In this document: in pieces, positions 4,058 through 23,643 of the stretch
How positions within the stretch are numbered: the first letter of the stretch is position 1
Layout: every line of letters begins with the position of its first letter
Source: Clostridiales bacterium
GTDB lineage: Bacteria > Bacillota > Clostridia > Christensenellales > Borkfalkiaceae
DNA length: 34,165 nt
Assembly (NCBI GenBank): GCA_015055545.1
Contig: SVHY01000022.1
Coordinates: 1 to 34,165 of the forward strand
Direction: 5' to 3'
Position numbers and translations under genes: made by a program
Notes under the pieces: generated by a model
What the model was told of the DNA's origin: nothing
What the model saw: the letters and a program-made list of their open reading frames with translations, nothing else
Databases searched by the model: none

Positions 4058-4702
4058 TTATACCCTTTCCATATATATAATTTGCGTTTTATCGTCCTTT
4101 AAATCGTTTACGTTAATGATCGTTTGATTTTTCTTAGACGGATATATAACGTCTGCATACCCTTGTAAAAAAGCCTTAGCGTCCGTTATATCAATCGTTC
4201 CGTCTTGCGGACGATAGTGCATAGGGATCACGATTTTCGGCGCAATATTTTCTACGAACACCTTTGCCCTCGCGGCATCTATCGTATACCTGCCGCCAAC
4301 GGGAATAAGTAGCACGTCCACCTTACCTATCCTTTCGGCAAACGCCTTTGTGTACGGTTCACCCAAATCGCCTAAATGACATACCCGTATTCCGTCTATC
4401 TCCATTATAAACACGACGTTTTTTCCACGTAATGCGCCCTGCTTATCGTCGTGATAGGTGGAAAATCCTTGAATGGCTACGTCTGCCACTCGCTCGTTTA
4501 CGGGCGTATCAAAAACCCGTTTTACACCCTTTACAGCCGGCGTATAGTTATGGTCGAAATGCCCGTGACTGACCGTTAAAATATCCGCGTACAAATCTTG
4601 CGGTAATTCATACCCCACGCCCGTATACGGATCGGTGATGATTTTGACTCCCTGCGCGTTCGTCAACGCAAAACATGAATGACCTAAATACTCAATTTTC
4701 AT
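4058..4702 (-). CDS. MBL-fold metal-dependent hydrolase (UPF0173-like)
   Basis: A 214-residue single-domain metallo-beta-lactamase-fold protein. Visible metal ligands are the SHGHFDH motif (H46, H48, D50, H51), the Asp of HLGDLG and a C-terminal PMHY histidine. The N-terminus MKIEYLGHSCF is typical of the UPF0173 / L-ascorbate-6-phosphate lactonase-like branch. The substrate is unknown. It has a GGGG-rich ribosome-binding site and lies 12 nt after the DUF1934 gene; its stop is one base before the rho start, so it is translated from the same transcript as rho. No signal peptide is visible, so it is probably cytosolic. Confidence 0.85.
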   Translation of the reverse strand: MKIEYLGHSCFALTNAQGVKIITDPYTGVGYELPQDLYADILTVSHGHFDHNYTPAVKGVKRVFDTPVNERVADVAIQGFSTYHDDKQGALRGKNVVFIMEIDGIRVCHLGDLGEPYTKAFAERIGKVDVLLIPVGGRYTIDAARAKVFVENIAPKIVIPMHYRPQDGTIDITDAKAFLQGYADVIYPSKKNQTIINVNDLKDDKTQIIYMERV

Positions 4703-4714
4703 ATTTTCCCCTTT

Positions 4715-5095
4715 CTACAATCGTGCGTGCAAACGGATTTTCATGACTTGCCGTTCGTCCCCGAACAGCAAATCGTAATGGGCGGATAACAACAACGACC
4801 GCTCCGTAAGAGAATACGAAAGCTTATGCGTTTGCGTAAAGACTTGTCCTTGTGAACCCATAATCCCAAGCGCGCCTGCGCAAATTTCGCCTTTACGAAG
4901 CGTTAAACGCATATCGTAATCGCCTGAGCGCGTAACGATTGCTTGGTCTTTCTCCACGGCAATCTCCACGCTTGCTTGTCCGTCTTGATAACGAATCTTA
5001 GCACAAAGTCCGTTGATTTCCATTTCACCGTCGCGCACAATTTCGTTTTCACGTCCGTCCGCCGACGATGCGACGGTGATACGACACTTTTTCAT
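4715..5095 (-). CDS. DUF1934 (YwiB-like) small beta-barrel protein
   Basis: A 126-residue protein rich in beta strands. The features that suggest DUF1934/YwiB (calycin-like barrel of unknown function) are an N-terminal 'KKCRITVASS..DG' strand, a central 'GEICAGALGIMGSQGQVF' turn and a C-terminal strand ending MKIRLHARL. No catalytic residues can be named. It sits between tyrA and the metallo-hydrolase with gaps of about 12 nt, so it is co-transcribed with them. The family call is by pattern only. Confidence 0.65.
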   Translation of the reverse strand: MKKCRITVASSADGRENEIVRDGEMEINGLCAKIRYQDGQASVEIAVEKDQAIVTRSGDYDMRLTLRKGEICAGALGIMGSQGQVFTQTHKLSYSLTERSLLLSAHYDLLFGDERQVMKIRLHARL

Positions 5096-5107
5096 AATTC
5101 TACCTTA

Positions 5108-5932
5108 TTAATCGTTCGGGCGGCGAATGGTTTCACGAATCAAACGACCTTCGCGTAAAAGCTCGGACGTACGTTCGTCGTCGCCTGCCGTCAACGCATC
5201 GCGATACGCGGATAAATGCTCGATAAGCCCGTTTAATTCACGAACGATATTCTCGCGGTTGCAAGCATACAAGGGCGTCCAAACGTGCTCGTCCACCCCC
5301 GCAATACGCGTCATATCCTGAAAGCTGCCGCCCGTAAAGCCGTGACAGCCTTGCACCTGCGGACTTTTTACGTACGCATTAGAAACGATATGCGCAAGCT
5401 GGGACGTGAGCGCAATTTTCTTATCGTGTTCTTCCGCCGTACATTCCACAATCGTACCAAAACCCATTTTTTGCGCGTATTCTTTTACCTTAGCAACGTC
5501 TTGCGATTGTGTTTGCGGTGCGTGGGTGATAATCAAATTCGCGCCTTTAAATAAATCGGGCGAAGCGGAATCAATCCCCGACGTTTCCTTACCCGCCATA
5601 GGATGAATCCCTACGTAGCGATAGTTTCTTTCCGTTTCGTAAACCGCGCGTTCGGGAGCTTGTTTCACACCGCAAATATCCATAACGAGCGCGCCGTCTT
5701 TGAACTTGCCGTTTCGCAAATAATCCAAGGTCGCTTGCGGGGGAACGGCGATAAACACCACGTCGTAGTCTGCGATATCCGCGCCTTGACGGCGAATATA
5801 CCCCTTTTCAATAGCGCGCAAAACGGATTTTTCACTACGTCCAAAACCGTCCACTTCATAGCCTGCGCGCGTAAGCGATGCGCAAATTGAACCGCCGATG
5901 ATTCCCATTCCTATAACCGCTATTTTTTCCAT
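5108..5932 (-). CDS. tyrA: Prephenate dehydrogenase
   Basis: This 274-residue enzyme oxidatively decarboxylates prephenate to 4-hydroxyphenylpyruvate with NAD(P)+, in tyrosine synthesis. The N-terminal Rossmann fingerprint is IAVIGMGIIGGSI. VFIAVPP, then GIHPMAGKETSG (substrate-site His and the conserved PMAGKE), and the helical dimerisation domain with LTSQLAHIVSNA follow in family order. There is no fused ACT or chorismate mutase domain, so this is the short monofunctional form. It is the first gene of the four-gene operon ending in rho. The start at 5932 has only a weak ribosome-binding site (TTTTAGG). Confidence 0.92.
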   Translation of the reverse strand: MEKIAVIGMGIIGGSICASLTRAGYEVDGFGRSEKSVLRAIEKGYIRRQGADIADYDVVFIAVPPQATLDYLRNGKFKDGALVMDICGVKQAPERAVYETERNYRYVGIHPMAGKETSGIDSASPDLFKGANLIITHAPQTQSQDVAKVKEYAQKMGFGTIVECTAEEHDKKIALTSQLAHIVSNAYVKSPQVQGCHGFTGGSFQDMTRIAGVDEHVWTPLYACNRENIVRELNGLIEHLSAYRDALTAGDDERTSELLREGRLIRETIRRPND

Positions 5933-5983
5933 AAGCCGTGCCTAAAACCTTTTATCGCAAAATATTCACGATTATTTTTCAAT

Positions 5984-6012
5984 ATTGTACCATATTTATA
6001 TAAAAATTTCAA
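5984..6012 (-). promoter_or_regulatory. Promoter of the tyrA-rho operon
   Basis: Minus-strand TTGAAA (6007-6012), a 17-bp spacer and TACAAT (5984-5989), with TGG directly before the -10. The -10 ends about 50 nt upstream of the tyrA start. Confidence 0.7.
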
Positions 6013-6033
6013 GTATTTTGTCGTAAAAAGTAT

Positions 6034-6060
6034 GAAAATCGGGAATTTCGCCCGATTTCC
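6034..6060 (-). terminator. Terminator after spoIIID
   Basis: Inverted repeat with arms 6034-6043 and 6051-6060 (core AAATCGGG/CCCGATTT plus a wobble pair) and a 7-nt loop, starting directly after the spoIIID stop. The minus-strand tail has only a five-T run a few bases on, so it is moderately convincing. Confidence 0.55.
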
Positions 6061-6061
6061 G

Positions 6062-6313
6062 TTATTGTTTTGCATATTTTTCCTTGGTCGCAAGCCCGCC
6101 GCGGATATGCCGTTCGCTTAAATTGCGAGCAAGCACGGCTTGCGTGCGTTCGTATAAATCCTCATCGACGTATTTTAAACGTTCGGAAACGTCTTTATGT
6201 ACCGTTGATTTACTGATAGAAAAATGCGCGGAGCACGCGCGGACGGTGCAACCCGTCGCCACAATATACTCAGCGCATTTTTTAACGCGTTCTTCTATAT
6301 AATCCCACAACAT
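6062..6313 (-). CDS. spoIIID: Sporulation transcriptional regulator SpoIIID
   Basis: About 83 residues. SpoIIID is the mother-cell DNA-binding regulator that modulates the sigma-E regulon during sporulation. The sequence follows B. subtilis SpoIIID closely: WDYIEERVKKCAEYIV, the helix-turn-helix containing SISKSTVHKDVSERL, then RHIRGGLATKEKY. I choose the ATG at 6313 rather than the one at 6325 because GGAGG lies 5 nt upstream of it and the protein then begins like the B. subtilis one. It lies just downstream of parC on the same strand, with a sigma-E-like promoter across the parC stop codon. Confidence 0.93.
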   Translation of the reverse strand: MLWDYIEERVKKCAEYIVATGCTVRACSAHFSISKSTVHKDVSERLKYVDEDLYERTQAVLARNLSERHIRGGLATKEKYAKQ

Positions 6314-6342
6314 TCCGACCTCCATAATACAAGCTACGGAAT

Positions 6343-6369
6343 ATACTATGTGGAATTTTTACAAATTAT
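6343..6369 (-). promoter_or_regulatory. Possible sigma-E-type promoter of spoIIID
   Basis: On the minus strand ATA (6369-6367), 16 bp, then CATAGTAT (6350-6343). The sigma-E consensus is approximately ATA-N16-18-CATACAnT. The -35 part overlaps the parC stop codon. Position (30 nt before the chosen start) and the known sigma-E dependence of spoIIID fit, but two -10 positions differ. Confidence 0.4.
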
Positions 6370-8831
6370 TCGTCCTTTTTGTACGGCATGGGAATTACTC
6401 TATCAATCGAACCCTCTGCGTAGCGGGAAATCTTCTTTGCTCGCGCACTTTGAACGGAAATGAACACGTCTTCGCTGGAAAGCTCGGAAACGGCGTTCGT
6501 TTTATCGACAACCGCAAGCATATACGGAACGGTTACGTAGCTTGCCGAAAGCACGCTTGCACCCTCTTTCATCGCCACGATAATCGAGCCTTTACGATAA
6601 CGCTTGGAAGGCTCGATTTGCGAGGAAATAACCCGTTTAAATTTACCCTCGTCCGTGGCTATTACAATCTCGCCCTCGCCGTTGATTTGCGTCATTAACA
6701 CTACGCTGTCACCCTCGCGGAGCATGATACCGCGCACGCCCGTAGAAATTCTGCCTTGCGTGGGTATATCGTCTTTCATAGCGTTTAGACAAATACCGTC
6801 CTTGGTTACGATGATAATCGTATCGTCCTCGTTCGTATCTTCTTCTACGGCAAGCACTTCGTCGCCGTCGTTAAGTTTGACCGCTTGGAACGCAGATTTA
6901 CGCTGTTCGTATTCCGCCCAGTCCGTCTTTTTAATCATGCCGTTCTTCGTGAAGAACAACAAATTCCCGTACGGCATTTTTTCACCCACTTCAAAGAGTG
7001 CAACCACTTTCTCGTCCACGTCGGCGTCCTTAGACAAATCTTTTAAGCTTGCGCCGCCGTCCGTAAGTTTACATTCCAGCTTGGGCGCAGATATATCCAA
7101 CTTATAGCAATTACCAAAGTTTGTAAACGCAAAAATGCGTTTATCCGTCGCCGTTTTCAGCGTTTGTAAAGCAATAACCTGCGGTTTGAATTTGCCGTCT
7201 AATTCCTTTTGCAACGCATCCGCCTGTTTACCGACGAGAACCTTGAATTTATCGTCCACCGTATATACGAGCGTACAAGGCATACCCGCTTTCTTTTCGG
7301 GCGCGGCGGCAACCATAACGTCCGCTTCTTCACGCGTATAAACGAGCTTGCTCTTGCGGGGCGTGGGATACGCCGCTTTGATTTCGGAAATTTCTTCTTT
7401 GACGACTTGGAGCTGTAAATCCCCGCTCTTGGAAATTGCCGTCAAACGCTTGATTTCTTTCTTCAATTCTTTGAGTTCTTGTTCGAGTTTGAAAATTTCA
7501 AGCTTGGTCAAACGGGCAAGGCGCAAATCGAGAATTGCCTGTGCTTGCTGTTCGGAAATTTCAAAACGAGCCATGAGCTTGTTTCTCGCGTCCGAGGTGC
7601 TATCCGATCCTTTAATGATCGCGATAACTTCGTCGATATTCTGCACGGCGATAATCAAGCCTTCCAAAATATGGCAACGTTGTTGCGCTTGTTTTAAATC
7701 GAAAAGCGTCCTGCGTTTTACGACCTGTTGTTGATAGCGTACGTAATGACGAATAATTTCCATAATCCCAAGTTGTTGGGGTTTGCCGTCCGCAATCACG
7801 ACCATATTGATACCGAACGTGATTTCCAAGTCGCTGTACTTATACAAGCATTTCAAAATCGCGTTGACGTCGTATTCCTTTTTCACGCGAATAACCGCGC
7901 GCATACCCGTTCTGTCCGATTCGTCCGCAACGTGGTCAATCCCTGCCAAATCGTCCTTTTTCTCTTCGCAAAGTTCGACGATTTTCCGCAAAAGCTGCGC
8001 TTTATTGACTTGATAAGGAAGTTCAGTTATGACGAGATTCGTCTTACCGTTATCGAGTTTTTCCGTATGGATTTTCGCACGGAGCGTGATTTTACCGCGC
8101 CCCGTTTTATACGCTTGAATCAGCTCGTTTGCAAGAATAAGACCGCCCGTAGGGAAATCGGGGCAAGGGATATATTCCATCATTTCTTCGAGCGAAATCG
8201 CGGGATTATCGATATACGCTACGACGCCGTTGATGACTTCTTCCAAGTTATGCGTAGGGATATTCGTCGCAAGCCCGACGGCAATCCCCGATGCGCCGTT
8301 GACGAGCAAGTTAGGGAAACGTCCGGGCAATACGTCCGGTTCTTTTAAGGTGTCGTCGAAATTCAAAGAAAAGCTGACGGTTTCTTTATCGATATCGCGC
8401 AAAAGTTCTAATGCAAGCGGCTGCATACGCGCTTCCGTATAACGCATAGCCGCGGCAGGATCCCCGTCTACCGAACCGAAGTTACCGTGTCCGTCTACGA
8501 GCATTTTGCCCATATTAAAATCCTGTGCCATACGCACCATCGCGTCGTATACCGAACTGTCGCCGTGCGGGTGGAATTTACCCATACATTCCCCGACGAT
8601 ACGCGCGCTCTTTTTATGCGGTTTATCGGGTGTTAACCCCATTTCGTGCATGGTATATAAAATACGGCGCTGTACGGGTTTTAAACCGTCTTCTACGCGT
8701 GGCAAAGCACGGTCGAGAATAACGAATTCCGCGTACGGGAGCATAGACGTATGCAATACCTTTTCAAGCGGTTCAACGTATAACTGACCCGTAGGTTCTA
8801 AGATTTCAGGTTCTTTCTTAGTTTTCGCCAT
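6366..8831 (-). CDS. parC: Type II topoisomerase subunit A, probably topoisomerase IV ParC
   Basis: The 821-residue subunit carries the DNA-cleaving tyrosine at Y131 ([11 protein letters not shown]), the quinolone-region motif [10 protein letters not shown] and a C-terminal beta-pinwheel. I favour ParC over GyrA on several grounds. It has KPVQRRILY (GyrA usually has H), [17 protein letters not shown] and NFDDTLKEP, all as in B. subtilis ParC. The first C-terminal blade has no QRRGGKG-like GyrA box. The gene overlaps the B-subunit gene by 14 nt. Topoisomerase IV decatenates sister chromosomes; gyrase would add negative supercoils. Start at 8831 has GGAG 7 nt upstream. The subunit type is certain; the IV-versus-gyrase choice is about two to one. 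Confidence 0.75.
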
Positions 8832-11013
8832 TTCCGTTCTCCTTTCCGCTCGTTTTTTCTATCTTATCAATAAAAGTATCCCGTTTATTGAAGTTGGCGT
8901 ATTTCGCCAAAAATTCCTTTCTACCTTCCACTTTATCGCCCATGAGCGTCGTTATCATACGTTCGGCTTTTGCCGCGTCCTCTACGGTTACTTGCGTTAA
9001 GTTTCGCGTAGCAGGGTTCATCGTCGTTTCCCAAAGCTGTTCGGCGCTCATTTCGCCAAGACCTTTATAGCGTTGGAGTTGATAGCCCTTACCTATCTTT
9101 TCAATCTTCTCGTTGAGTTCTTTATCGTCGTACGCGTACTCTACCTTGTCGCCCTTGTAGACTTTATACAGCGGCGGCATACCGATATACACGCACCCCG
9201 CATTGACGAGCGGGCGCATATAACGGAAGAAGAACGTAAGCAAAATACAACGAATATGCATACCGTCTTGGTCGGCATCCGACAGGATAATTACCTTATG
9301 GTAATTGACTTTATCCATTTTGAAATCCGGGTCAATCCCCGCGCCGATCGCGCTTATCATCGTACGAATTTCTTCGTTTTCGAGGATTTGGTTGAGCTTT
9401 TTCTTTTCCACGTTCAACGGCTTACCGCGCAAAGGTAAAATGGACTGATATTGCCTTACTCTTGCCTGCTTTGCCGTACCACCAGCCGAATCCCCTTCGA
9501 CTATGAACAATTCGTTCAGTTCAGGTTTTTTACCCGAACAAGCTGCAAGCTTGCCCACCAAGTTCAAGCCGTCAATGCCGCTCTTTTTACGGGCGTTGTC
9601 CTTGGCTTCCTTTACGGCAAGACGCTCTTTGGCCGCGCCCTGCGCTTTTTTGATGATTTCTTCCATCGTCTTTTTATAACCGCGGACGTTCTGCAAAGCG
9701 TTAAAGCCTTCAATAACCGTCGCCTCAACGGGCGGGCGGGCTTCGGTATTACCAAGCTTGGTTTTCGTTTGACCTTCAAACTGCACGTTTGCCATTTTCA
9801 CAGACAAAATCGCCGTCAGACCTTGACGGAAGTCTTCGCCTTGGAAGTTGGGATCTTTATCTTTCAAAAAACCGTTGCTACGCGCGTATTCGTTGAGCGC
9901 ACGAACCATACCCGATTTGAAACCGATCTCATGATAACCACCCTCGGGCGTGGGGATATTGTTGACGAACGAGAACACGCTTTCCGTGTAATCGCCCGTA
10001 TGCTGAATAGCAAATTCAACCTGAATATCGTTTTTAACCGCTTTATAATAAATGGGCTGCGCGTATAACTTTTTCTTACCTTCGTTTAAACTCTTGACGT
10101 AATCGGAAATACCGCCGTCGTATTTGAATACGGCGCGGTACGGTTCGCTTTCCAACGCAAGCTCGTCCACTTCCGCGAACAAAGACTGCTGCGGTTCGCT
10201 GTCAATACTTTCCATTGCAAACTCTTCCAAAGGCGTTTGTTCCGTTTCAACCGCTTCTTCGTCGGTTGCCTGTTCTTCGCCCGTTTCGCCTAAATATGCG
10301 CGCGTGCGTTTCGCTTCCGCCATAGAAATACGTTCGTCTACGATCGTAATTTCCACGCCGCGGTTTAAAAACGCAAGGACGTTCAAACGTTCTTCTACGG
10401 TGTCTAAATCGAAATCCACTTCGGAAAACACCGTCGCGTCCGGTTTAAACCGCACGAACGTGCCTTGGCGGTTGGTCTTAATCCCCGTATCTTCCAAAGG
10501 TCCGTCGGGTATACCCGAATCCACCTTTTTTTTGCGCGGGTTGTATTTGGAATGGAAACCCATTTTATAAATGCGCTTATTCCTGCAAATTTCAACGGTA
10601 AGCCATTCGGAGAGCGCGTTCGTTACCGACGCACCAACGCCGTGCAAACCGCCCGAATATTCGTAATTACCCTGTCCGAATTTGCCGCCTGCGTGCAACT
10701 TCGTAAAAACAAGCTGAACACCCGAAACTTTTTCTTTCGGGTGTATGTCGGTGGGAATACCGCGCCCGTTATCTTCTACGGACGCACTGCCGTCGCTATG
10801 CAACGTCACTTTAATTTTGCTTGCATAACCGTTTGCCGCTTCGTCGATTGCGTTATCCACAATCTCCCAAAGAACGTGGTGTAAACCTTTGATGCCCGTC
10901 GAACCGATATACATACCCGGCCGCATACGAACGGCGTCTAAGCCTTCCAACACTTCTAAGTTTTTCGCGCTATACTCGTCTTTCTTGTTCTCGTTTTTCA
11001 CTTCTCTTGCCAT
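8818..11013 (-). CDS. parE: Type II topoisomerase subunit B, probably topoisomerase IV ParE, with acidic insertion
   Basis: A 731-residue ATPase subunit, longer than the usual 630-660. GHKL ATP-site motifs are visible (VDNAIDEA at 52-59, [23 protein letters not shown]), then the transducer, TOPRIM ([15 protein letters not shown]) and tail. The tail [20 protein letters not shown] followed by [16 protein letters not shown] matches ParE better than GyrB. Between ITIVDER (about 222-228) and FKYDGGI (about 296) there are some 65 residues, rich in Glu/Asp, where relatives have about ten. The ribosome-binding site is AGG(T)/AAAGGG before ATG 11013. It forms an operon with parC, which starts inside its last codons. 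Confidence 0.75.
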
Positions 11014-11059
11014 TGTACCCTTTTACCTTTTATCCGCGAATTTTTTGCCAATTTCTATC

Positions 11060-11097
11060 ATTATACCATTTTTTTTATTATTTTTCAAACGTTTGAA
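11060..11097 (-). promoter_or_regulatory. parE-parC promoter with overlapping perfect palindrome
   Basis: Minus-strand TTGAAA (11083-11088), 17 bp, TATAAT (11060-11065) preceded by TGG. A perfect 14-bp palindrome TTCAAACGTTTGAA spans 11084-11097 and covers the -35, so it could be an operator. No clear terminator separates this from the upstream helD gene, so some read-through is possible. Confidence 0.7.
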
Positions 11098-11115
11098 TTA
11101 AAAAATCCGTTTTTT

Positions 11116-13524
11116 TTATTCGTTTACCTGTTTTTTCGCTTTAATTACTGCTAAATCCTTTAAAGCGCGCGTATAGGCGATATACCGTTCTGCCGACGAT
11201 AACCCGTCTTCCACAACGCACACGGACGAAAATTCTAAGCCTTTACTTTCGTACACCGTCATCAAGTTGATTTTGTTTCGCGATACTTTACCTTTGACGG
11301 AAAGCTCGTTATACGATTTACGTAAATATTCCGCTTTACACTTTTCCGAGCAGATAATCGCCTTTAAGCCCTTTTTGTTCTTGAAAAATCCACTAATATT
11401 ACGTGCGGAAATATATTCAACGGGCGGGCCGTCAAAACCGATCGGTTGCATATCCAAATCCAAAGCCGACGATACGAAGTCTACGATTTGGTTGGTATTG
11501 CGGTAGTTTTGATTGAGCGTGTAAATATCGTCTTTAGGGAACACGTCTTTCCAATCGCGCACGCCCCGCCAAGGCGTTACGTTTTGCGCCAAATCCCCGA
11601 ATACGTTAAACGAGGCTTTTTTGTTGATTTTTTTCAAAAGCTCGTATTCGCAAACGGATACGTCTTGCGCTTCGTCTACGAACACGTACGAATACACGGG
11701 CGAAAGCCTATCCGTAAGATTAGAACATATCACGCACAGCGCGTACGCGTCCGAGGTATACATTTTGCTCGACTTCATACCGTACTTATACTTATATTTT
11801 TTCACCGTTTCACGATAAAAATACCGTACGATATCGATAAAGCCTTCGCCTCTGCCTATTTCCGTGAATTCCTTTTGGCAACGCAAATACAGGAAAAATT
11901 CCGTAAGCGCCGTAATTTTTTCGCCGATAAGCGTAACCTTTTCCGCTACCTTTTCCGTTTCCTTGACAAGCTCTTCACGACGCGCGATTCGGTCGGCATA
12001 GGTATACACCTCTACGCTACCTATACGTTGACGGAAGCGGCGCAAATCGAATACTTCCTTTTCAAGCGCGATTTTGAGCTCTTTCAACGTTTGCAGTGCG
12101 TCCGCCGTAATTCTTTCCGTATTGCGCACGATATACGATACGCTTTTATAAAAAGACGATAACTGGCGATAGAAATAATCGGGCGATTTTGCGTTCGCGC
12201 TCGTAAGCGTTCCGCCGAGAAAATCTTCTACGTCCAAAAAGCAGTTCATAAGTGAACGGAAAGGTTTCGTATAATACAAACCGCCCTCTTTGCGTTCTTT
12301 CATTTCACCGAGCACGGCACGCCGCACGCGCATAGACGAATTTTTAATCCCTTCATATGCAAGGAGTTGTTTTTTGCAATCGGATAATATGCTTGCAATA
12401 AATTCCGCACATTCCGCGCCCGTGAACATACCGTATAAATCGTCGTACGATTTTTGTAATTTCTTGCCAACGTCTTTTGTAAATTTAGGCGAATACAAAT
12501 ACGCAAGATATTCGTCCGTTTCCCTTTGTGTATAATCGATTTTGCTTTCGATTTCGATTTTTTCGTTTTTCAATACTTGTAAGAAATAATCGAAAACCGT
12601 AACCGTTTTTACCCGTTCAAGCTCCAAAATTTCCGCGAGCTCGTCGATGAACGCATTGAACGAATTGCTGGGTGTAAGCACGAGCACGTCGCGCGGTTTT
12701 ATTTCCTCGTTATTGTACATCAAATAGCTCAAACGGTGCAACATAACCATCGTTTTTCCGCTACCAGCACAGCCCTGCAACACGAAATTGCTCTTTTCGG
12801 GACGAGTGATTATTTCGTATTGCTTTTCCTGTATCGTTTCGATGATATCCCTAACGGCGGATTCTTCCTTGCGGTTTTTGATAATTTCGCGCAAAAACGG
12901 ATCGAGCACGTTCTCTTCGTCGCGGTCGGCTATTTCTTCTGCCGTCAAATAATCTCTCAAAGACAAATACTCGTTTTTAAAATCAATAAGCGTTCCGCAC
13001 TTTGCTCGGATTGCGCGGCGTAAAACCGTTTTGTATTCGTATTCGTTAATGGTAAAGGTGGAACAGCTTTTTTGATAATACCGTCTTGCAAGCGGCGCGC
13101 GCCAATCGACGATTTCCAGTTTGACGTCCCCTTTTTTACCGATATAATAACTATTATACCCCTCGATATTATCAACTAAATCCATACGCGCAAAATACGG
13201 CTCGTCAAAGAACGGACGAAAAGTATCCGTCTTTTCTTTTATGCGCTCGATTTCCGCAAGCAGGATTTTGATTTTACGGTAATTCTCCGCAGGCGTATCC
13301 TTATCTTTTTCCAAACGCGCGATCTCTTCCCGCGCCTGTTTTTCCGCTTTTTTGCGCGGACGGATATGCGCGATGCGCAACATTTGCATCACCGCGTTTA
13401 AATGCCCGTCCTCATACCTTTTTTGTGCTTCGTCGTCAAGCAAGGATAAAAACCAAGCGTGGTCGCCCGATTTTTTCGGTTCAAGATATTCCGTTAATTT
13501 TTCGTAAGGGAGCTTTTCTAACAT
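11116..13524 (-). CDS. helD: HelD-like UvrD/Rep-family motor (RNA polymerase recycling)
   Basis: 802 residues. HelD proteins are SF1 ATPases that push arms into RNA polymerase and release stalled or hibernating enzyme from nucleic acid. Seen here: a charged coiled-coil N-terminal arm (about 40-100), the HelD hallmark DWRAPLARRYY (140-150), Walker A QGCAGSGKT (250-258), a long inserted helical region (about 380-570), FVDEAQDVS (motif II), NVFGDLAQNV (motif III), NQNYRNT (motif IV) and YESKGLEF (motif V). The DWRAP motif and the split 1A domain distinguish it from UvrD and PcrA. The ATG at 13524 has no Shine-Dalgarno sequence and lies very close to the promoter. Confidence 0.85.
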   Translation of the reverse strand: MLEKLPYEKLTEYLEPKKSGDHAWFLSLLDDEAQKRYEDGHLNAVMQMLRIAHIRPRKKAEKQAREEIARLEKDKDTPAENYRKIKILLAEIERIKEKTDTFRPFFDEPYFARMDLVDNIEGYNSYYIGKKGDVKLEIVDWRAPLARRYYQKSCSTFTINEYEYKTVLRRAIRAKCGTLIDFKNEYLSLRDYLTAEEIADRDEENVLDPFLREIIKNRKEESAVRDIIETIQEKQYEIITRPEKSNFVLQGCAGSGKTMVMLHRLSYLMYNNEEIKPRDVLVLTPSNSFNAFIDELAEILELERVKTVTVFDYFLQVLKNEKIEIESKIDYTQRETDEYLAYLYSPKFTKDVGKKLQKSYDDLYGMFTGAECAEFIASILSDCKKQLLAYEGIKNSSMRVRRAVLGEMKERKEGGLYYTKPFRSLMNCFLDVEDFLGGTLTSANAKSPDYFYRQLSSFYKSVSYIVRNTERITADALQTLKELKIALEKEVFDLRRFRQRIGSVEVYTYADRIARREELVKETEKVAEKVTLIGEKITALTEFFLYLRCQKEFTEIGRGEGFIDIVRYFYRETVKKYKYKYGMKSSKMYTSDAYALCVICSNLTDRLSPVYSYVFVDEAQDVSVCEYELLKKINKKASFNVFGDLAQNVTPWRGVRDWKDVFPKDDIYTLNQNYRNTNQIVDFVSSALDLDMQPIGFDGPPVEYISARNISGFFKNKKGLKAIICSEKCKAEYLRKSYNELSVKGKVSRNKINLMTVYESKGLEFSSVCVVEDGLSSAERYIAYTRALKDLAVIKAKKQVNE

Positions 13525-13657: not shown

Positions 13658-15679
13658 TTATAACATCAATAAAATGAAACAACCGCCCTGCACCGTACGG
13701 GCACGGAAATAATGGTATTTGCCGTCTTTCGTTTCATACCAGTCGGCAAAAGGCACGCGATCGGGCGATTTTATTAGAAAATTCGCAACTGCGTTTACAA
13801 AGCGTTCCCGCTTGCTTTCATCGTCCGTCAACGCAGCCACCCACAACAGCCAGTCGCTTTTGGTAAACCCTGCACGATTGTCAAGCGGCGTACCGTACTC
13901 GTTCATCTCGGCAAGATACGCGTCCGTTTCCGTTTCGAACAGTTCTTGCGGGAATAAATGCAAATCGAGCAACTTATCGAACGCAAAATTGTATTTAAGC
14001 GAAAAGGTCGTTTCATCCGCGTCCCACGAAATGGGCATACGGGGAAAAGATTTCCCAAATTTTGTAAGCTCCGCAGCGAAATTTTTGGCAATCGAAATAT
14101 ATTTTTCATAGGCGCAGGCGTCGCCCGACGCTTTGCAAAGCATTGCGTACGAGCCGATTCCCACCGTGGCTTTGACGGCAAGATTGACGTTGTTTTTCAT
14201 TCTACCCGCAAAATCGTCCGTACAAAGCTGTTCTTCGGGTTTCAAACCGAATTGGACGAGATAACGCACCCATTTTTCTGCCAAATCGGCATTGTTTTGA
14301 TAAAATTGCAAATCCCCGTCCGCTTTATAACAAGCGTATAACATCACGAGCATATCCGCACATTCTTCCACGGGCATTTGCCGAGCGTATACATACAAGT
14401 TAAAGCCCGCAGGCAAAAGATAATACGGGAAATGCGTCTTAGGAACGCCGTATTCAAAAAAATTACCGTAATAGCGACGCTCCGATTCCGTTACTCCGCC
14501 GTCGCCGTACACCCCGTAGGCTTGCCCGCAACATGCAGGATACACCCCCGCGTCGTGCGGTGCGAAATCGTATTCCCAAACGGGCATTCTCGCAAACTCA
14601 AAAATCGGACGCAGCATACCTTTTACAAGCTCGGGATTGTACAACAAATAGAGCGGCATAGACGGATAACTCACGTCCACTGTGGCGATACAACCGCCCG
14701 AATTACATTCTTTGGATAAAAACAAAGCCTTTCCGTCCTTTCCACGAATAAGCTTGTGCGCCGCCACGCTTTGACGCAAAGACGCCACCAGTACGAGATA
14801 ATAATTCTCCCCGTATTTTTTTGCCTTTTCTTTCAAACGCTCGTCAAACGCTCCAAGCTGCGCGTTGATTTGCTCCCGATTGCAATACGCGTCGTTCAGC
14901 GCGTCTATAACGGTATGATTTTCCAAATACCAGCCCTTTTTCCACGCACCGAAATAATCGATAGCCACCGTTTCGTCGTAAGCAAGCATAACGACGCCTT
15001 TGTTTCCATCGTTTACCGAGCCGATATAATGATCTTCGCCCCGATAGGAAAAATTTTTATTATTCCCCACCAAGTACGAAACGAGATCTCTTTCGTCGAG
15101 AAAATACGCTCGTTGCCCCGAAAGATAATAATATCCCCAGTCCGCGCCCATACAATCGCTGTTATTAGAAAGCGGGAATTGCCGTTTCAATCCAAAAAAA
15201 GCACTTTCAAACTTTTCAAATCGTATCGCGCCACCGCGGACGCCAAGCTTTTCGCCGTTAGGCGAATTGTAGCAAACGCGGCGGTTGACGAATACCGAAA
15301 GTTCTACCTCGCTTGCGCCCGTAACTTCATATTCCATATAGCATACGGGCATAGACAACAAATCAAGATCGTCGGGCGGGAGCGGGGAAACGAAACGCAA
15401 CCTAAGCGTTGCGTCGCCTACCGCAAACGCGTAGTCGGTGGAAAACGCCGTTACTTCAAGCGACGTTTGCGTTGCCGCTTTTACCCCGTAACAAGCAAAC
15501 TCCGAAGCGTTGCCAAGAAAGCAATAGGTTTCATCTTTGATTTTCAAAAAGCCGTACACGGGTTTTTCTTCCCCAAACCAACTTTGCGGATTTCCGCTAT
15601 TCAGCTCGTCGCAAGCCGACCAAAGCGAAAAATTAGGGGCTTTAACGAATAAAGGATACGCCGGTAATTTTCTATTCAT
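13658..15679 (-). CDS. GtaA-family protein (DUF5127/DUF4965/DUF1793), cytosolic
   Basis: A 673-residue two-part protein. The N-terminal beta domain opens PAYPLFVKAPNFSLWS and continues with 'SWFGEEKPVYGFLKI.DETYCFLG', as in fungal glutaminase A (GtaA) relatives. The C-terminal part is an (alpha/alpha)-barrel with the hallmarks FAFDKLLDLHLFP (about 565-577), EYGTPLDNR (594-602), FTKSDW (605-610), PFADWYET (643-650) and RTVQGG. Fungal GtaA is a secreted glutaminase, but most bacterial members are uncharacterised and often sit among sugar genes. No signal peptide is seen here, so it should act in the cytosol. It is the last gene of the activase/glycyl-radical operon, 35 nt after the glycyl-radical enzyme, with GGAGA as ribosome-binding site. 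Substrate unknown. Confidence 0.8.
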   Translation of the reverse strand: MNRKLPAYPLFVKAPNFSLWSACDELNSGNPQSWFGEEKPVYGFLKIKDETYCFLGNASEFACYGVKAATQTSLEVTAFSTDYAFAVGDATLRLRFVSPLPPDDLDLLSMPVCYMEYEVTGASEVELSVFVNRRVCYNSPNGEKLGVRGGAIRFEKFESAFFGLKRQFPLSNNSDCMGADWGYYYLSGQRAYFLDERDLVSYLVGNNKNFSYRGEDHYIGSVNDGNKGVVMLAYDETVAIDYFGAWKKGWYLENHTVIDALNDAYCNREQINAQLGAFDERLKEKAKKYGENYYLVLVASLRQSVAAHKLIRGKDGKALFLSKECNSGGCIATVDVSYPSMPLYLLYNPELVKGMLRPIFEFARMPVWEYDFAPHDAGVYPACCGQAYGVYGDGGVTESERRYYGNFFEYGVPKTHFPYYLLPAGFNLYVYARQMPVEECADMLVMLYACYKADGDLQFYQNNADLAEKWVRYLVQFGLKPEEQLCTDDFAGRMKNNVNLAVKATVGIGSYAMLCKASGDACAYEKYISIAKNFAAELTKFGKSFPRMPISWDADETTFSLKYNFAFDKLLDLHLFPQELFETETDAYLAEMNEYGTPLDNRAGFTKSDWLLWVAALTDDESKRERFVNAVANFLIKSPDRVPFADWYETKDGKYHYFRARTVQGGCFILLML

Positions 15680-15714
15680 AACATTTTCTCCGTAAATTTT
15701 TATTGTATTTTAGT

Positions 15715-17727
15715 CTAAAAAGTATATTCCATACGGCGGATAATATGATTTTGGAATACGGGGTCAAGTTCGTTGAAATATCCGCTCCAACCCCATACGC
15801 GTACAATCAAATTCGGATATCGTTCGGGATGCGCTTGCGCCTGTAAAAGTATCTCTCTATTCACGGCGTTGATTTGGATTTGATGTCCCCCGCGATCGAT
15901 AAACGCCTTTACGAGCATTGCCGTCTTTTTCTCGCCCTCGTCGTTTCTAAACACCGTATCGTGGATTTCTATCGTAAACGGTCCGCCGTTGATGATTTTC
16001 GACAAATCGAATTTCGTAAACGAGGCAATCGCCGAAAGCGGTCCATTCACGTGCGTGGTGATAGCAGGCGAAAAGCTTGAACCGAACGGTGCTGCCGCAT
16101 TACGGCCGTCTGCCGTTGCCCCCACGTATGACGCACTATAATGATATTCATGCGCGCTGCCCGTACCCGCACGGTACACACCGCCGCGATTGTTGGGTTT
16201 TAAGTTGACGCTATCAGCAAACCAGCCCATCAATTTTGCCGCCTTTGCGTCGACGCTATCTTCGTTATTGCCCATTTTCGGGCAAGCCAACAAGCGTTTT
16301 TGCACGTCTTCGTAACCGACAAAATCCTTACAAGTCGCCCGCAATAAGGTTGTTTTGCCGACGGATTTTTCAATAAATACCGCGCGTTCAATCGCTTCCA
16401 ACGCGTCTGCGGCGTTTGCAATTCCCGCGCCGTGTATACCGTAATTGTTATATTTCCCGCCGTAACAGGATATATCCCGACCCTTTTCGATACAAGGACG
16501 AATGAAAATAGACAAAAACGCGTCGGGCGGTTCAATACAACGGTTCAACGATTCTATTTTATCGACACAATCCTCGCGGATTTGTCGTTCTACGTATTTT
16601 TCAAAGGTTGGATAATCGGGAGAATACAGCAAATATTTCTTCGTTGCCAGTTCTACGGAAAGCGGGAAATTCATCGTGCCTATATTCGGGATATCCGCAC
16701 CGTAGGCGGGAATGATAAATTCCCAACACGCCGCCACCGTATAATTTCTCGCGTCCTTTTCATCGTAACCAAGTGCAATCAACCCAGGAATCACGACGTC
16801 GTCGTTGGAATACTGCGGAAACCCAAGCCCCTGCTTGGTTAATCGCGTACCCCGTTCGTACAGCGAAAGCGGCGTATCTTTATTTACCCGTATATTGATT
16901 TTGGGATCAATCACTTTCAGCTCTTCCGACGCAGTTAAACATATCTCGGAAAGCTCGTTAAACGCTGCTCTTCCCTTCTCGTCGCAACCGCCGAGCATCA
17001 TACTCTGCCCGTTATCACCCATTTGCACGCCAACGTAGATATCCGAATCCATATTAAGGGAAAGGAAAAAGAGTTCGGTCAATTCCAAAAGCTCTTCGTC
17101 CGTCGCCCCCGCAGCCTTGGAAGCGTCGAAATACGGCTTTGCGTATTGATCAAAACGGCCGAGCGTCACGTGCGTCGTTCCGTTTAGGCGTAATATATAT
17201 TGCATAAAACGAACGGTTACGATAGCTTGATAATAATCCTTTGCCCCGTTTTCGGGCACGGTGCAAAGCGCTTGGTAAAGTTTCTCATTCCCCTGTCGTT
17301 TTGCCCCGTCGCGATATTTTTTTACCGCGTCTCTCGCAATATCCAAACAAAGCAACGCCTCGTCGTAAAATTCTTTTGCGATTTTATCCGCCTGCTCGTA
17401 ACGCGCTACGATTTCTTCACGCAGTCCGTTTAAGCCACCCTTTAATACGCTTTCGTAATCTATACATATATTGCCGAACGCACCCTGCAACAAGTGTATG
17501 GAATCAAAAGCCAACCGCACTCGGCTTTGATTAAAACCGATGATATCGTCCCCGTAAAATACGGGGCTTTCTTCCTTAACGCGTTGCGCAAAAAGATTTC
17601 TTCGACACGCCATTAACGACAGACCTTCGTTTTTCGCCCCCATATCAGTCGCCGCGTCCGTATTGCGCAACGAACGATATTCTCGCGACCTAAAATATTC
17701 CAGCCTTTGTTTTACTCTTTCCGTCAT
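15715..17727 (-). CDS. Glycyl-radical enzyme of the PFL/dehydratase superfamily, substrate unknown
   Basis: 670 residues, shorter than the usual 780-850 of dehydratase-type members. The thiyl cysteine is C334 in AACWEFIIP; the general-base glutamate two residues on (C-x-E) is kept, as in diol/glycerol dehydratases, choline lyase and relatives. Pyruvate formate-lyase proper has two adjacent cysteines, so this is not PflB. The C-terminal radical loop is RVWGWSGYF with radical glycine G646. CWEF and RVWGW differ from the GCVE and RVSGY signatures of the characterised subfamilies I know. The cognate activase is 11 nt upstream. It presumably acts on a small cytosolic substrate by dehydration or C-X cleavage; which one cannot be told. 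Confidence 0.88.
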   Translation of the reverse strand: MTERVKQRLEYFRSREYRSLRNTDAATDMGAKNEGLSLMACRRNLFAQRVKEESPVFYGDDIIGFNQSRVRLAFDSIHLLQGAFGNICIDYESVLKGGLNGLREEIVARYEQADKIAKEFYDEALLCLDIARDAVKKYRDGAKRQGNEKLYQALCTVPENGAKDYYQAIVTVRFMQYILRLNGTTHVTLGRFDQYAKPYFDASKAAGATDEELLELTELFFLSLNMDSDIYVGVQMGDNGQSMMLGGCDEKGRAAFNELSEICLTASEELKVIDPKINIRVNKDTPLSLYERGTRLTKQGLGFPQYSNDDVVIPGLIALGYDEKDARNYTVAACWEFIIPAYGADIPNIGTMNFPLSVELATKKYLLYSPDYPTFEKYVERQIREDCVDKIESLNRCIEPPDAFLSIFIRPCIEKGRDISCYGGKYNNYGIHGAGIANAADALEAIERAVFIEKSVGKTTLLRATCKDFVGYEDVQKRLLACPKMGNNEDSVDAKAAKLMGWFADSVNLKPNNRGGVYRAGTGSAHEYHYSASYVGATADGRNAAAPFGSSFSPAITTHVNGPLSAIASFTKFDLSKIINGGPFTIEIHDTVFRNDEGEKKTAMLVKAFIDRGGHQIQINAVNREILLQAQAHPERYPNLIVRVWGWSGYFNELDPVFQNHIIRRMEYTF

Positions 17728-17738
17728 ATGATAACCCC

Positions 17739-18563
17739 CTACATTATTTTCGCTTTTATTCCGTATTCAGCCAAAAACCGTTCGGGGTTTTGGCTTACAT
17801 TCGTTTCGTCAAAATTAGGTGCATACCGTCTTTGCAACGCCTTGTATTTGCCACCCGCCATCTTATTATACGGCAACAACTCCGCATGCTCTACGCCCTT
17901 ATCCTTTATAAAACGTGCAATCGCAGACAAGTTTTCGCGCGTATCCGTCACCGACGGGATTAAGGGAATACGCGTAACGAACGCTTTTCCGCTTTTTACC
18001 AACAAATCGTAATTTTTAAGAATTTTTTCGTTGCCCACGCCGCACCACTGCCGATGCGCGTCGTCGTCCATAATTTTCAAGTCGTATAACACGAAATCAC
18101 ACACGGACAAAACGCTTTCAAACGTTTCGCAATTTGCAAAGCCGCTCGTTTGCAAAGCCGCGTGTAAACCGTTCAAACGGCTTACGCAATCAACGATAAA
18201 TTGCGATTGCGATAAGGGTTCGCCACCCGAAAAGGTAACTCCGCCTCCGCTTGCTCGTAAAATCTCCGCGTTTTTTAGTATTTTATCCGCTAATCTTTGC
18301 GGCGTATACTCTTCGCCGACTGCCCGCACCAAATTTCGCGGACACGCCCCTATACTTTTTTCCGTAAGCCGACCGCTTTCGTCTTCGCATTTTTTACAAC
18401 CTAAACAGCCGTTAGGGCTACGCATATATTCCTTTTCAAAAGCTTGCCCCTCGGGATTGTGACACCATGCGCATTTAAGCGGACAACCCTTCAAAAATAC
18501 CGTCGTCCGTATCCCCGGACCGTCAAAAGTGGAAAATTCTTCGATTGAAAAAATCCGCCCCAT
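17739..18563 (-). CDS. Glycyl-radical enzyme activase (radical SAM, PflA family)
   Basis: 274 residues. It installs the glycyl radical on the neighbouring enzyme using SAM and a [4Fe-4S] cluster. Radical-SAM cysteines are C27, C31, C34 (CPLKCAWC), preceded by FDGPGIRTTVF and followed by TFSGGEPL. An inserted ferredoxin-like segment has only four cysteines (C53, C56, C59, C74), so probably one auxiliary cluster where many dehydratase activases have eight cysteines for two. I place the start at ATG 18563, with AGGTG six nt upstream, rather than the in-frame GTG at 18572. First gene of the operon. Confidence 0.93.
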   Translation of the reverse strand: MGRIFSIEEFSTFDGPGIRTTVFLKGCPLKCAWCHNPEGQAFEKEYMRSPNGCLGCKKCEDESGRLTEKSIGACPRNLVRAVGEEYTPQRLADKILKNAEILRASGGGVTFSGGEPLSQSQFIVDCVSRLNGLHAALQTSGFANCETFESVLSVCDFVLYDLKIMDDDAHRQWCGVGNEKILKNYDLLVKSGKAFVTRIPLIPSVTDTRENLSAIARFIKDKGVEHAELLPYNKMAGGKYKALQRRYAPNFDETNVSQNPERFLAEYGIKAKIM

Positions 18564-18584
18564 CACATTCACCTTTTTTATTTT

Positions 18585-18613
18585 ATTATACTATGATACG
18601 CTTGACAGTTCAA
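18585..18613 (-). promoter_or_regulatory. Promoter of the glycyl-radical operon
   Basis: Minus-strand TTGAAC (18608-18613), 17 bp, TATAAT (18585-18590). Its -35 directly abuts the -35 of the divergent AraC-gene promoter. Confidence 0.75.
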
Positions 18614-18630
18614 GAAATTTTTTGTATAAT
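18601..18630 (+). promoter_or_regulatory. Consensus promoter of the AraC regulator and central inverted repeat
   Basis: TTGACA (18602-18607), 17 bp, TATAAT (18625-18630), an exact sigma-A consensus. The perfect inverted repeat CTTGA-CAGT-TCAAG (18601-18614) spans both divergent -35 hexamers. It may be an operator, or simply the result of two back-to-back -35 elements. RNA polymerase should not be able to occupy both promoters at once. Confidence 0.8.
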
Positions 18631-18662
18631 TATAGCCATAAATTGACTTTTAGGTGTTCGTT

Positions 18663-19475
18663 ATGATTTTTCATCAAATCGACAATTCCATCGGCAATAA
18701 TATTTACAATGCGTATATATACGAAGATTTCAATTTCCATTTACATTTTCATAAAGGTTATGAATTCGTATTCGTATTAAAAGGCGAGCTTTGCGTTACG
18801 GTTGATAAAAAAAAGTATTTTCCAAAACAGGGAGAATGTATGTTGATTTTCCCTTATCAGTTTCATTCGTATCAAAAAGGCGAAGGTTCGAAAATTTTCG
18901 TCGTCGTTTTTTCAAACGCGCACGTACCTTTCTTTCATAATTTAACGGAAAATCGTTTGGCAGTCAGCCCCGTATTTTCTTTAAGTGAAACTACGGAAAA
19001 ATTCATACTTGCGTCTTTAATCGGAAACACTCTCGTCGAAGGCGAAAAGATAGAAATTCCCGCGCCCGACCCGCTCCTATTAAAAGCTACGCTTTACGCG
19101 CTCTGCGCGGAATTTTTTCAGTTATCCGAGTTCGTTCCAGCACCCGCTTTTCGCAGCGACCCCGTTCTCGATTGCCTTTTATATATCGAAAGCCGTTACA
19201 CAGAGAACGTTTCTCTGCAAGATATGGCGAAAGAACTTGGGTTTAACGCCGAATATTTATGCCGTTTGCTCAACCGCACGCTCGGCATAGGCTTTAAAAC
19301 GCTTATCAATCAATACCGTTGCGAGCGTGCGCAATACCTTCTCACCAACACGAAAGCCACGGTGACGGTTGCAGCGATGGAAAGCGGATTTCAAAGCATC
19401 CGTTCGTTCAATCGCGTGTTTAAGGAAACGACGGGTATATCTCCACACGAATTAAAACAATCTTCAAAAATATAA
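18663..19475 (+). CDS. AraC-family transcriptional regulator, next to the glycyl-radical operon
   Basis: About 270 residues. The N-terminal half is a cupin-like sensor (LHFHKGYEFVFVLKGELCVTV..., PYQFHSY). The C-terminal 100 residues hold two helix-turn-helix motifs (VSLQDMAKELGFNAEYLCRLLNRTLG and ATVTVAAMESGF...FNRVFKETTGISPHEL, in part) typical of AraC/XylS. It is divergent from the activase gene, so it is probably the regulator of that operon, binding a small ligand in the cupin. I choose ATG 18663 over GTG 18654 because AGGTG precedes it by six nt, as in the divergent activase gene. Confidence 0.9.
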   Translation: MIFHQIDNSIGNNIYNAYIYEDFNFHLHFHKGYEFVFVLKGELCVTVDKKKYFPKQGECMLIFPYQFHSYQKGEGSKIFVVVFSNAHVPFFHNLTENRLAVSPVFSLSETTEKFILASLIGNTLVEGEKIEIPAPDPLLLKATLYALCAEFFQLSEFVPAPAFRSDPVLDCLLYIESRYTENVSLQDMAKELGFNAEYLCRLLNRTLGIGFKTLINQYRCERAQYLLTNTKATVTVAAMESGFQSIRSFNRVFKETTGISPHELKQSSKI

Positions 19476-19535
19476 CCGAATACCCCGCAAAAGTTTTCCA
19501 ACTTTTGCGGGGTATTCGGTTATTAGCGTTTTTTT
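19472..19535. terminator. Bidirectional terminator between araC gene and argS (24-bp perfect stem)
   Basis: Arms 19472-19495 and 19500-19523 are perfect reverse complements (24 bp) with a TTCC loop. The plus strand continues TAGCG and seven T residues; the minus strand continues into ATTTTTG. The stop codon of the AraC gene (19473-19475) is inside the left arm. It serves both convergent genes. Confidence 0.92.
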
Positions 19536-21393: not shown

Positions 21394-22509
21394 ATGAAAC
21401 TCGGCGTCGTAGGACTCCCCAACGTAGGAAAATCCACTCTCTTTAACGCAATTACCCGCGCAGGCGCGGAATGTGCGAATTATCCCTTCTGCACCATCGA
21501 ACCCAACGTGGGCGTGGTTGCCGTTCCCGACGAACGCTTGGACAAGCTCGCCGCTTTATATACGAGCAAAAAGGTTACCCCTGCCGTTATCGAATTCGTC
21601 GATATAGCAGGGCTTGTAAAAGGCGCGTCCAAGGGCGAAGGCTTGGGCAATAAATTCCTTTCGCATATCCGTGAAGTGGACGCTATCGTGCACGTAGTAC
21701 GCTGTTTTGAGGACGCGAACATCACACACGTAGACAATAACGTCAATCCCGTAAGCGATATCGAAACGATTAATCTCGAACTCGTTTTGTCGGACATGGA
21801 AGCCGTGCAAAACCGCATGAACAAAGTAAAAGTGCAAGCCCGCGGCGGCGCGGATAAAAAAGCGGCGGAAGAATACGCGTTTTTGGAACGTTTATACGCG
21901 CACCTTGAAAGCGAAAAACCTGCCCGCAACTTTGCGACGACGGACGACGAAAAAGAGTTTTTGAAAAATTGTTTTCTGTTGACTACCAAACCCGTTATTT
22001 ACGCGGCAAACATCAAAGAAGACGATATGGGTAAAGACGAAGACACCCTCCCCCACGTCGTAAGCGTAAAAGAATTTGCAGCGAAAGAAGGCGCGGAAGT
22101 GTTGGTTATTTGCGCGAAAACGGAAGAAGATTTAGCGCAAATGGATGCGGAAGACAAAGCGATTTTCATGGAAGAATTCGGGCTTGGCGAAAGCGGCTTG
22201 GATAGGCTCATTAAAAAATCCTATTCCCTGCTCGGCTTGATTTCCTATCTGACGGCAGGCGAAAAGGAAACGCGCGCGTGGACGATTACGAAAGGCACGA
22301 AAGCGCCGCAAGCCGCGGGCAAAATCCACACCGATTTTGAAAAAGGCTTTATCCGCGCGGACGTTGTGAACTGGGAAATTCTCGTAGAACTCGGCTCTAT
22401 CGCCGCCGCAAAGGAAAAGGGGAAAGTTCGTTCCGAGGGCAAAGAATATATCATGCAGGACGGCGACGTTGTAGAATACTATTTCAACGTTTCCAAAAGC
22501 TCCAAATAA
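21394..22509 (+). CDS. ychF: Ribosome-binding ATPase YchF (Obg family)
   Basis: 371 residues. YchF/OLA1 binds ATP rather than GTP and associates with ribosomes. The G1 motif GLPNVGKST is at residues 7-15, G3 is DIAGLVKGASKGEGLGN, the central coiled coil covers about 120-190, and the C-terminal TGS domain includes TAGEKETRAWTI and YIMQDGDVVEYYFNV. Start: an in-frame ATG exists at 21352, but GGAAG sits eight nt before the ATG at 21394 and family proteins begin MKLGVVGLPNVGKS, so 21394 is used. Transcribed alone between argS and nahK. Confidence 0.96.
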   Translation: MKLGVVGLPNVGKSTLFNAITRAGAECANYPFCTIEPNVGVVAVPDERLDKLAALYTSKKVTPAVIEFVDIAGLVKGASKGEGLGNKFLSHIREVDAIVHVVRCFEDANITHVDNNVNPVSDIETINLELVLSDMEAVQNRMNKVKVQARGGADKKAAEEYAFLERLYAHLESEKPARNFATTDDEKEFLKNCFLLTTKPVIYAANIKEDDMGKDEDTLPHVVSVKEFAAKEGAEVLVICAKTEEDLAQMDAEDKAIFMEEFGLGESGLDRLIKKSYSLLGLISYLTAGEKETRAWTITKGTKAPQAAGKIHTDFEKGFIRADVVNWEILVELGSIAAAKEKGKVRSEGKEYIMQDGDVVEYYFNVSKSSK

Positions 22510-22521
22510 GCGAAAGCAATC

Positions 22522-22554
22522 AAAAACAGACGGGCAAACAACCCGTCTGTTTTT
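22522..22554. terminator. Bidirectional terminator between ychF and nahK-like gene
   Basis: A 13-bp perfect stem (AAAAACAGACGGG at 22522-22534, CCCGTCTGTTTTT at 22542-22554) with a 7-nt loop and T runs on both strands. Confidence 0.9.
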
Positions 22555-22566
22555 CGTTTCGTTCTA

Positions 22567-23643
<1,077 letters not shown>

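Follow-up and report, generated by a model that had tools for sequence, protein, structure and literature searches.

The window analysed here is a stretch of 34,165 nucleotides from a Clostridiales bacterium (contig SVHY01000022.1 of assembly GCA_015055545.1), and our subject is a locus within it that comprises the genes for a glycyl-radical enzyme (GRE), a radical S-adenosylmethionine (SAM) GRE activase, a GtaA/DUF4965-family protein and a divergently transcribed cupin-AraC regulator (Table 1). An earlier note on this DNA had described a cassette of these four genes with gaps of 11 nt (activase/GRE) and 35 nt (GRE/GtaA), a promoter pair and a terminator, and the open reading frame (ORF) list, Pfam and a site scan reproduced all of these elements. 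The short gap between the divergent AraC and activase genes holds two overlapping, opposed sigma-70-like sites, and no terminator between GRE and GtaA is among the sites listed for the region. Since promoter-like sites (12 against a shuffle mean of 9.9) and terminator-like sites (13 against 10.3) occur over the whole region at nearly the shuffled level, we gave weight only to the best sites. Comparison with homologues puts the probable start of AraC at ATG 18663 rather than GTG 18654, and that of the activase a few codons inside its listed GTG.

Table 1. Genes, motifs and cis elements of the locus, numbered by position in the window.
Feature	Position	Strand	Description
GtaA/DUF4965-family protein	13658..15679	-	673 aa; PF16335, PF17168, PF16334
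GRE	15715..17727	-	670 aa; PF02901 and PF01228 above cut-off
Radical-SAM GRE activase	17739..18572	-	Radical_SAM Pfam; TIGR02494
Cupin-AraC regulator, divergent	18663..19475	+	HTH_18 and Cupin_2; listed ORF begins GTG 18654
C334-W335-E336, C-x-E motif of GRE	16720..16728	-	alignment
RVWGWSG glycyl-radical fingerprint, G646	15781..15801	-	alignment
Promoter-like site for activase-GRE-GtaA	18585..18613	-	TTGAAC-17-TATAAT, 10/12; overlaps AraC promoter
Promoter-like site for AraC	18602..18630	+	TTGACA-17-TATAAT, 12/12
Terminator-like hairpin 3' of GtaA	13608..13636	-	11-pair stem, T run on minus strand
Long inverted repeat between AraC and argS	19474..19521	.	20-pair stem; terminator-like on minus strand

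Family and active site of the glycyl-radical enzyme

The features of the GRE superfamily are present, namely a C-terminal RVXG[FWY] fingerprint, a conserved mid-protein cysteine and a partner activase gene. An excerpt of PMC11528403 gives RVXG[FWY] as the GRE fingerprint, and one of PMC7077986 describes the C-x-E motif as a mark of GRE eliminases. The enzyme reaches no NCBIfam equivalog cut-off: the best equivalogs are PRK09983 with 271.5 bits (cut-off 1109) and HypD with 257.2 bits (cut-off 1100). HypD, CutC, HpsG/HpfG, the indoleacetate and hydroxyphenylacetate decarboxylases and pyruvate formate-lyase (PFL) were all rejected, as the GRE stays below the NCBIfam cut-off of each. The closest PDB relative is the glycerol dehydratase 1r8w, with 262.6 bits for the single sequence and 392 bits with the family profile, and identity to other GREs in related genomes is 30–35%. 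Of 396 genomes searched in the order, 21 (the window genome among them) match the family profile with 756.8 bits or more, and the next match scores 402 bits; given this drop, the family is sharply bounded. In a sample of the phylum it occurs in 2 of 398 genomes, the window genome counted. In a collection of genome contigs, at least 541 stretches with the family peptide pattern encode a relative (E 1e-3; one locus may hold two). The best 80 of these were examined as family loci, a sample that leans to close relatives, and among them are records named Clostridia, Hungatella hathewayi, Massiliimalia massiliensis, Bacteroidales, Paludibacter, Prolixibacteraceae, Thermoguttaceae and Victivallales. 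In a plasmid collection 135 records match, all with less than 60% identity (30–31% for the five listed). Neither the GRE family nor a GRE/GtaA pairing is described among the top matches in the open-licence PMC literature.

Alignment of the GRE family (106 rows, a few duplicates included) revealed that C334, W335 and E336 are invariant in all rows, as are W645, G646 and W647 in the 105 rows that reach the fingerprint. The family has N86 where nine of nine other GREs of related genomes have a histidine, and its H186, N239, A333, R519, G523 and W645 are absent from all nine, whereas W647 is also found in one of them. When aligned to 1r8w (residue numbers counted by hand), H164, S282, F333, D447 and Y640 are replaced by N86, V187, N239, N348 and G523, respectively, and a five-residue segment containing Y339 is missing from the family; H281 aligns with H186, which is kept in 103 of 105 rows. 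We take H164, S282, D447 and Y640 to be the substrate-binding residues of 1r8w. The substrate-binding residues of glycerol/propanediol dehydratase (1r8w) are not matched in the GRE, and we infer a pocket that may be larger and more polar than that of glycerol dehydratase.

The activase scores 259.3 bits against TIGR02494 (cut-off 174.35) and carries the CX3CX2C motif at Cys30/34/37, with further cysteines, closely spaced, at positions 56, 59, 62 and 77. GRE activases of such type usually carry two accessory Fe-S clusters. As the extra cysteines of the window activase are only these four, it probably has one accessory cluster, not two.

Outside the cassette, housekeeping-like genes lie on both sides (HelD-like, GyrB, ArgS, YchF and RecA by family scan), and none of the 19 window proteins scanned for families is a transporter, as had been stated before. 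The long inverted repeat at 19474–19521 extends into the AraC stop codon. A second glycyl-radical protein in the window is the class III ribonucleotide reductase NrdD (41–2224, minus strand; PF13597, 651 bits), and PF02901 is matched eight times in the window genome (1.95 Mb, incomplete), at seven sites that correspond to seven PFL-like genes.

Recurrence of the activase, AraC and GtaA genes

The GRE was found in all 106 loci with a full ORF list, which left 100 loci besides the window after six duplicates had been dropped. ORF picking is unreliable in GC-rich loci (e.g. L174, L202 and L209), and the flanks are limited by contig ends. An activase homologue lies within 300 bp of the GRE on the same strand in 89 of the 100 loci (71 upstream, 18 downstream), and a divergent AraC homologue lies upstream of the GRE in 39. 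As the window proteins served as queries for recognising AraC and GtaA (E 1e-8), the counts of these two are lower bounds. In a FastTree phylogeny of 106 rows (99 loci, the window and six outgroup GREs), 38 of the 52 labelled loci of one clade are AraC-divergent as compared to one of 47 outside it. This clade of 53 rows has a local support of 100 and contains the window. The recurrent unit is activase-GRE, plus a divergent AraC in one clade. LacI-type genes are at most 1 kb away from the GRE in L086, L099, L101, L202 and L207, and 5–6 kb away in L107 and L201.

GtaA shows a different picture. The window protein matches PF16335 (376.5 bits), PF17168 and PF16334, all above cut-off, retains the conserved acidic motifs of its family in an alignment of 21 sequences and has no evident signal peptide by eye; a PDB sequence search gave no real match. 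According to an excerpt of PMC9668830, a bacterial relative was weakly active as a beta-galactosidase and inactive as a glutaminase, and the authors propose a glycoside hydrolase role for such relatives. We thus rejected a glutaminase function, and the window GtaA is a probable cytosolic glycoside hydrolase.

A dedicated catabolic route in which GtaA and GRE act one after the other is suggested by their common transcript with its 35-nt gap and no listed terminator in between, by L068, where GtaA adjoins the cassette AraC in a layout differing from that of the window, and by co-occurrence: PF16335 is found in 10 of 26 GRE-positive versus 2 of 54 GRE-negative genomes (p = 1.3e-4), an association that holds within families (z = 2.74) and among GH43-positive genomes (10/21 versus 1/17, p = 0.0099; GH, glycoside hydrolase family). 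All but one of the GRE-positive genomes in this count belong to the order, the exception coming from another part of the phylum. The window's own family is not represented among the GRE-negative genomes, yet 14 genomes of that family have GtaA without a family GRE match (a GtaA homologue at E 1e-30 is present in 18 of 121 relatives, these 14 among them). Eight such genomes carry GtaA orthologues of 53–63% identity, while the GtaA proteins of L068 and L119 are merely 35–36% identical to that of the window. The earlier note would have regarded a pair confined to this genome as evidence against the pathway, and the outcome comes close to that: GtaA lies near the GRE in 2 of the 100 other loci, L068 and L119, in the latter at a distance of 7.2 kb together with an ATP-binding cassette (ABC) transporter. 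Conversely, no GRE or activase was found by tblastn near the GtaA of relatives in 18 neighbourhoods from 14 genomes (L171–L188, some of them short), the sole GRE beside GtaA in that run being the window's own copy. On the counts of 2/100 and 0/18 we rejected a fixed GRE-GtaA pathway as the principal explanation and consider such a dedicated route unlikely. Because of the genome-level co-occurrence and the L068 arrangement a loose link may nonetheless exist; the pair is a local arrangement with a loose functional tie at most. Hence, the catabolic cassette proposed earlier holds as a real, regulated cassette with a GRE below all equivalog cut-offs, but not as a fixed pathway pair of GRE and GtaA.

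The AraC profile (28 proteins, i.e. the window regulator and 27 from GRE loci) was searched in 200 genomes of the order. The top three matches (286 bits or more) lie at GRE loci; two were already in the profile and the third (genome G124) is independent. The next match, also in G124 (267.6 bits), diverges across 130 nt from a gene that is GH51-like (219.8 bits against the ArfA model, below cut-off). Six further matches score 202–212 bits: one in G109 is 123 nt divergent from xylose isomerase, one in G255 has xylose isomerase, GH3 and GH43 in its vicinity, one in G238 adjoins GH3, and three have no recognised neighbour. These neighbours are a lead to a possible pentose ligand, no proof.

Sugar context and candidate reactions

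Sugar genes accompany the GRE at a number of family loci (neighbours said below to be named by eye come from no family search). One clade of seven loci has GH2 and GH43 near activase-GRE in five of them (L058, L069, L073, L079 and L195), with operons of the form GH2-activase-GRE-GH43, and ABC permeases come next in four. A sugar-porter gene, activase and GRE are found in L100, L112 and L120, two of the three with an MDP-1-type phosphatase. In L082, xylB and xylA, both above NCBIfam cut-offs, are 1.3 kb and 2.8 kb from the GRE. GH51 occurs in L191, GH127 in L068, L074, L081 and L085 as well as directly downstream of the GRE in genome G172. Arabinofuranosidase domains are present in L061 and, judged by similarity, also in L101, and a truncated GH51-like fragment lies in L119 (34% by blast, no Pfam match). 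Among 104 operon partners from 39 loci, spurious ORFs included, GH43 is the commonest Pfam family (6), followed by the AAA domain (5) and GH2, LacI and ABC components (4 each), counted among the 25 commonest of 109 families. At the genome level, GH127 is found in 19 of 26 GRE-positive versus 15 of 54 GRE-negative genomes and GH43 in 21 of 26 versus 17 of 54.

The reading best supported by these data is that the GREs form an eliminase family of plant-sugar metabolism, one form of which is compact and controlled by AraC. For the window we propose a regulated cassette whose GRE would be a radical lyase that breaks a C-O bond in a small polyhydroxylated plant sugar or close derivative, with GtaA as an accessory cytosolic glycosidase. 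We place about as much belief as doubt in this proposal; a pentose-type substrate is our best single guess, and uronates, anhydro-sugars, diols and phosphorylated compounds are further candidates. With layout, family, motifs and conservation as observed above, we infer the following course, its ligand, substrate and product included. A pentose-type sugar would bind the cupin-AraC protein and turn on the overlapping divergent promoter. The activase, with SAM and an Fe-S cluster, would put a radical on G646, from where it would move to C334. This residue would then abstract a hydrogen atom of the polyhydroxylated substrate, most likely a small plant-wall monosaccharide of the xylose or arabinose type or a close derivative. 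E336 may assist the loss of the neighbouring oxygen substituent (water, ring or ether oxygen), and the deoxy carbonyl product would be used by housekeeping enzymes. GtaA, on the same transcript in the window genome, may free the sugar as an accessory. A more far-reaching version, which we regard as improbable, is that the GRE of herbivore-gut Clostridia, Bacteroidales and others cleaves, by radical chemistry, a C-O bond of free unphosphorylated pentoses (xylose/arabinose) or their simplest derivatives, as a kinase-free side door to fermentation with a pentose-sensing AraC switch.

Several observations weigh against the plant-sugar reading. Many loci of the window's AraC clade have no obvious adjoining sugar gene (by eye, among the loci listed), and since sugar genes are often not beside these cassettes, the context says little for that clade. 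Other loci point elsewhere: L200 has uxaC-uxuA-eda (glucuronate isomerase, mannonate dehydratase and an aldolase, the last named by eye, as is a GH95-like gene there). An isomerase, a PfkB-type kinase and a class II aldolase, in part named by eye, are present in L107 and L208, by eye L027 holds galactose and glycerol kinase genes, phosphatases occur in L112, L120 and L198 and LarA in L031, and in L032, L046 and L050 a gene no more than 1.7 kb from the GRE resembles, by eye, glycerol-1-phosphate dehydrogenase. The GH43 association is not significant once stratified by family (z 0.83), and the higher frequency of GH43 and GH127 in genomes with the GRE may simply be a sign of fibre degraders. AraC paralogues near pentose genes score just 202–267 bits, and four of the seven AraC matches outside GRE loci lack a recognised xylA or GH51 neighbour (one of the four lies beside GH3). 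N348 occurs in one and C-W-E in two of the nine other GREs and so are not unique to the family, and the pocket is described from sequence alignment. Finally, family members go down to about 41% identity to the window GRE, and the family may therefore comprise several functions.

Alternatively, the GRE could be a diol dehydratase of the glycerol/1,2-propanediol type that clears diols from sugar breakdown (lactaldehyde, glycolaldehyde and glyceraldehyde branches). The best PDB match and the retained counterpart of H281 would fit such an enzyme, as would the isomerase, kinase and aldolase genes of L107 and L208 and the glycerol-1-phosphate-dehydrogenase-like neighbours, but the remaining 1r8w positions compared are altered across the family. 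No aldehyde or diol reductase is among the 25 commonest partner Pfams of 109, no dedicated search having been made, and 21 of the 27 GRE-positive genomes, of which some are incomplete, gave no shell-protein match. The earlier observation that microcompartment genes are not nearby is confirmed by the seven PF00936 matches of the window genome, all of which are on contig C11 and none on the window contig C25. Microcompartment dependence was rejected as the main reading, as shell-protein matches are lacking at the locus and in most GRE-positive genomes, and we rate a diol dehydratase as quite unlikely. The seven shell matches on C11 (16925–25305) surround another GRE (21511–23592), a separate GRE-type microcompartment.

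That the GRE is a lyase of the YbiW/PflD kind, opening the ring of anhydro-sugars or of their phosphates, is in our estimation very unlikely. Among PDB entries PflD ranks second by profile score, and phosphatases (L112, L120, L198) or a major facilitator superfamily (MFS) carrier resembling PgtP/galactonate carriers (L063/L028, L198) adjoin a few GREs, but the sequence is distant (239 bits singly), the phosphatase neighbours are confined to small subclades and no phosphotransferase system (PTS) gene was noticed among the neighbours, in which no search aimed at PTS was made. The similarity of these MFS carriers to the PgtP/galactonate carriers is distant. A calcineurin-like phosphoesterase is found near GRE-activase in L198 (Pfam) and L031 (by eye), and in L107 the PfkB-type kinase, class II aldolase and isomerase cluster with the GRE at 4121–13488, the isomerase having a distant likeness to sulfoquinovose isomerase (97 bits at a cut-off of 700).

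Comparison with known systems

Newly assigned GRE subfamilies have opened anaerobic routes for choline, hydroxyproline, isethionate and anhydrohexitols. The present family is found in many, mostly uncultured, gut species and has a compact three-gene form. Its active site appears by sequence to be unlike the solved ones to which it was aligned, so that one enzyme pair would suffice for a decisive substrate screen. The comparison of loci also corrects an easy error, as GtaA, an attractive operon partner, is not conserved at these loci and is probably an occasional companion of the cassette.

With the glycerol (1r8w/1r9d) and propanediol (5i2a/5i2g) dehydratases the window GRE has in common the PFL-like family, C-x-E, the fingerprint and a partner activase. 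It is, however, distant from both (262.6 and 241.3 bits, respectively), differs at the aligned positions and is by alignment about 80 residues shorter in its N-terminal part, and its family, unlike those dehydratases, has no tie to a microcompartment. The E. coli anhydrohexitol-6-phosphate lyases YbiW/PflD (8yjo, 385.7 bits) likewise perform a sugar-related C-O cleavage, which for the window GRE is predicted, although the proteins are distant in sequence; the YbiW/PflD substrate is PTS-phosphorylated in E. coli according to an excerpt of PMC12441222. The trans-4-hydroxy-L-proline dehydratase HypD is a C-x-E eliminase too, but the window GRE scores 257 bits at a cut-off of 1100; the His160 of HypD presumably occupies the position of N86 in the family.

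The GtaA/DUF4965 family is predicted to be GH116/GH52-like, a prediction quoted in PMC9668830. The window GtaA has the same three domains as this family and differs in being bacterial, probably cytosolic and in an operon with a GRE. The aminoacyl radical enzymes described in an excerpt of PMC11528403 are likewise uncharacterised, eliminase-like GRE homologues, from metagenomes. In those the radical glycine is replaced by alanine, serine or threonine, whereas the family of the window GRE has glycine in 105 of 105 rows.

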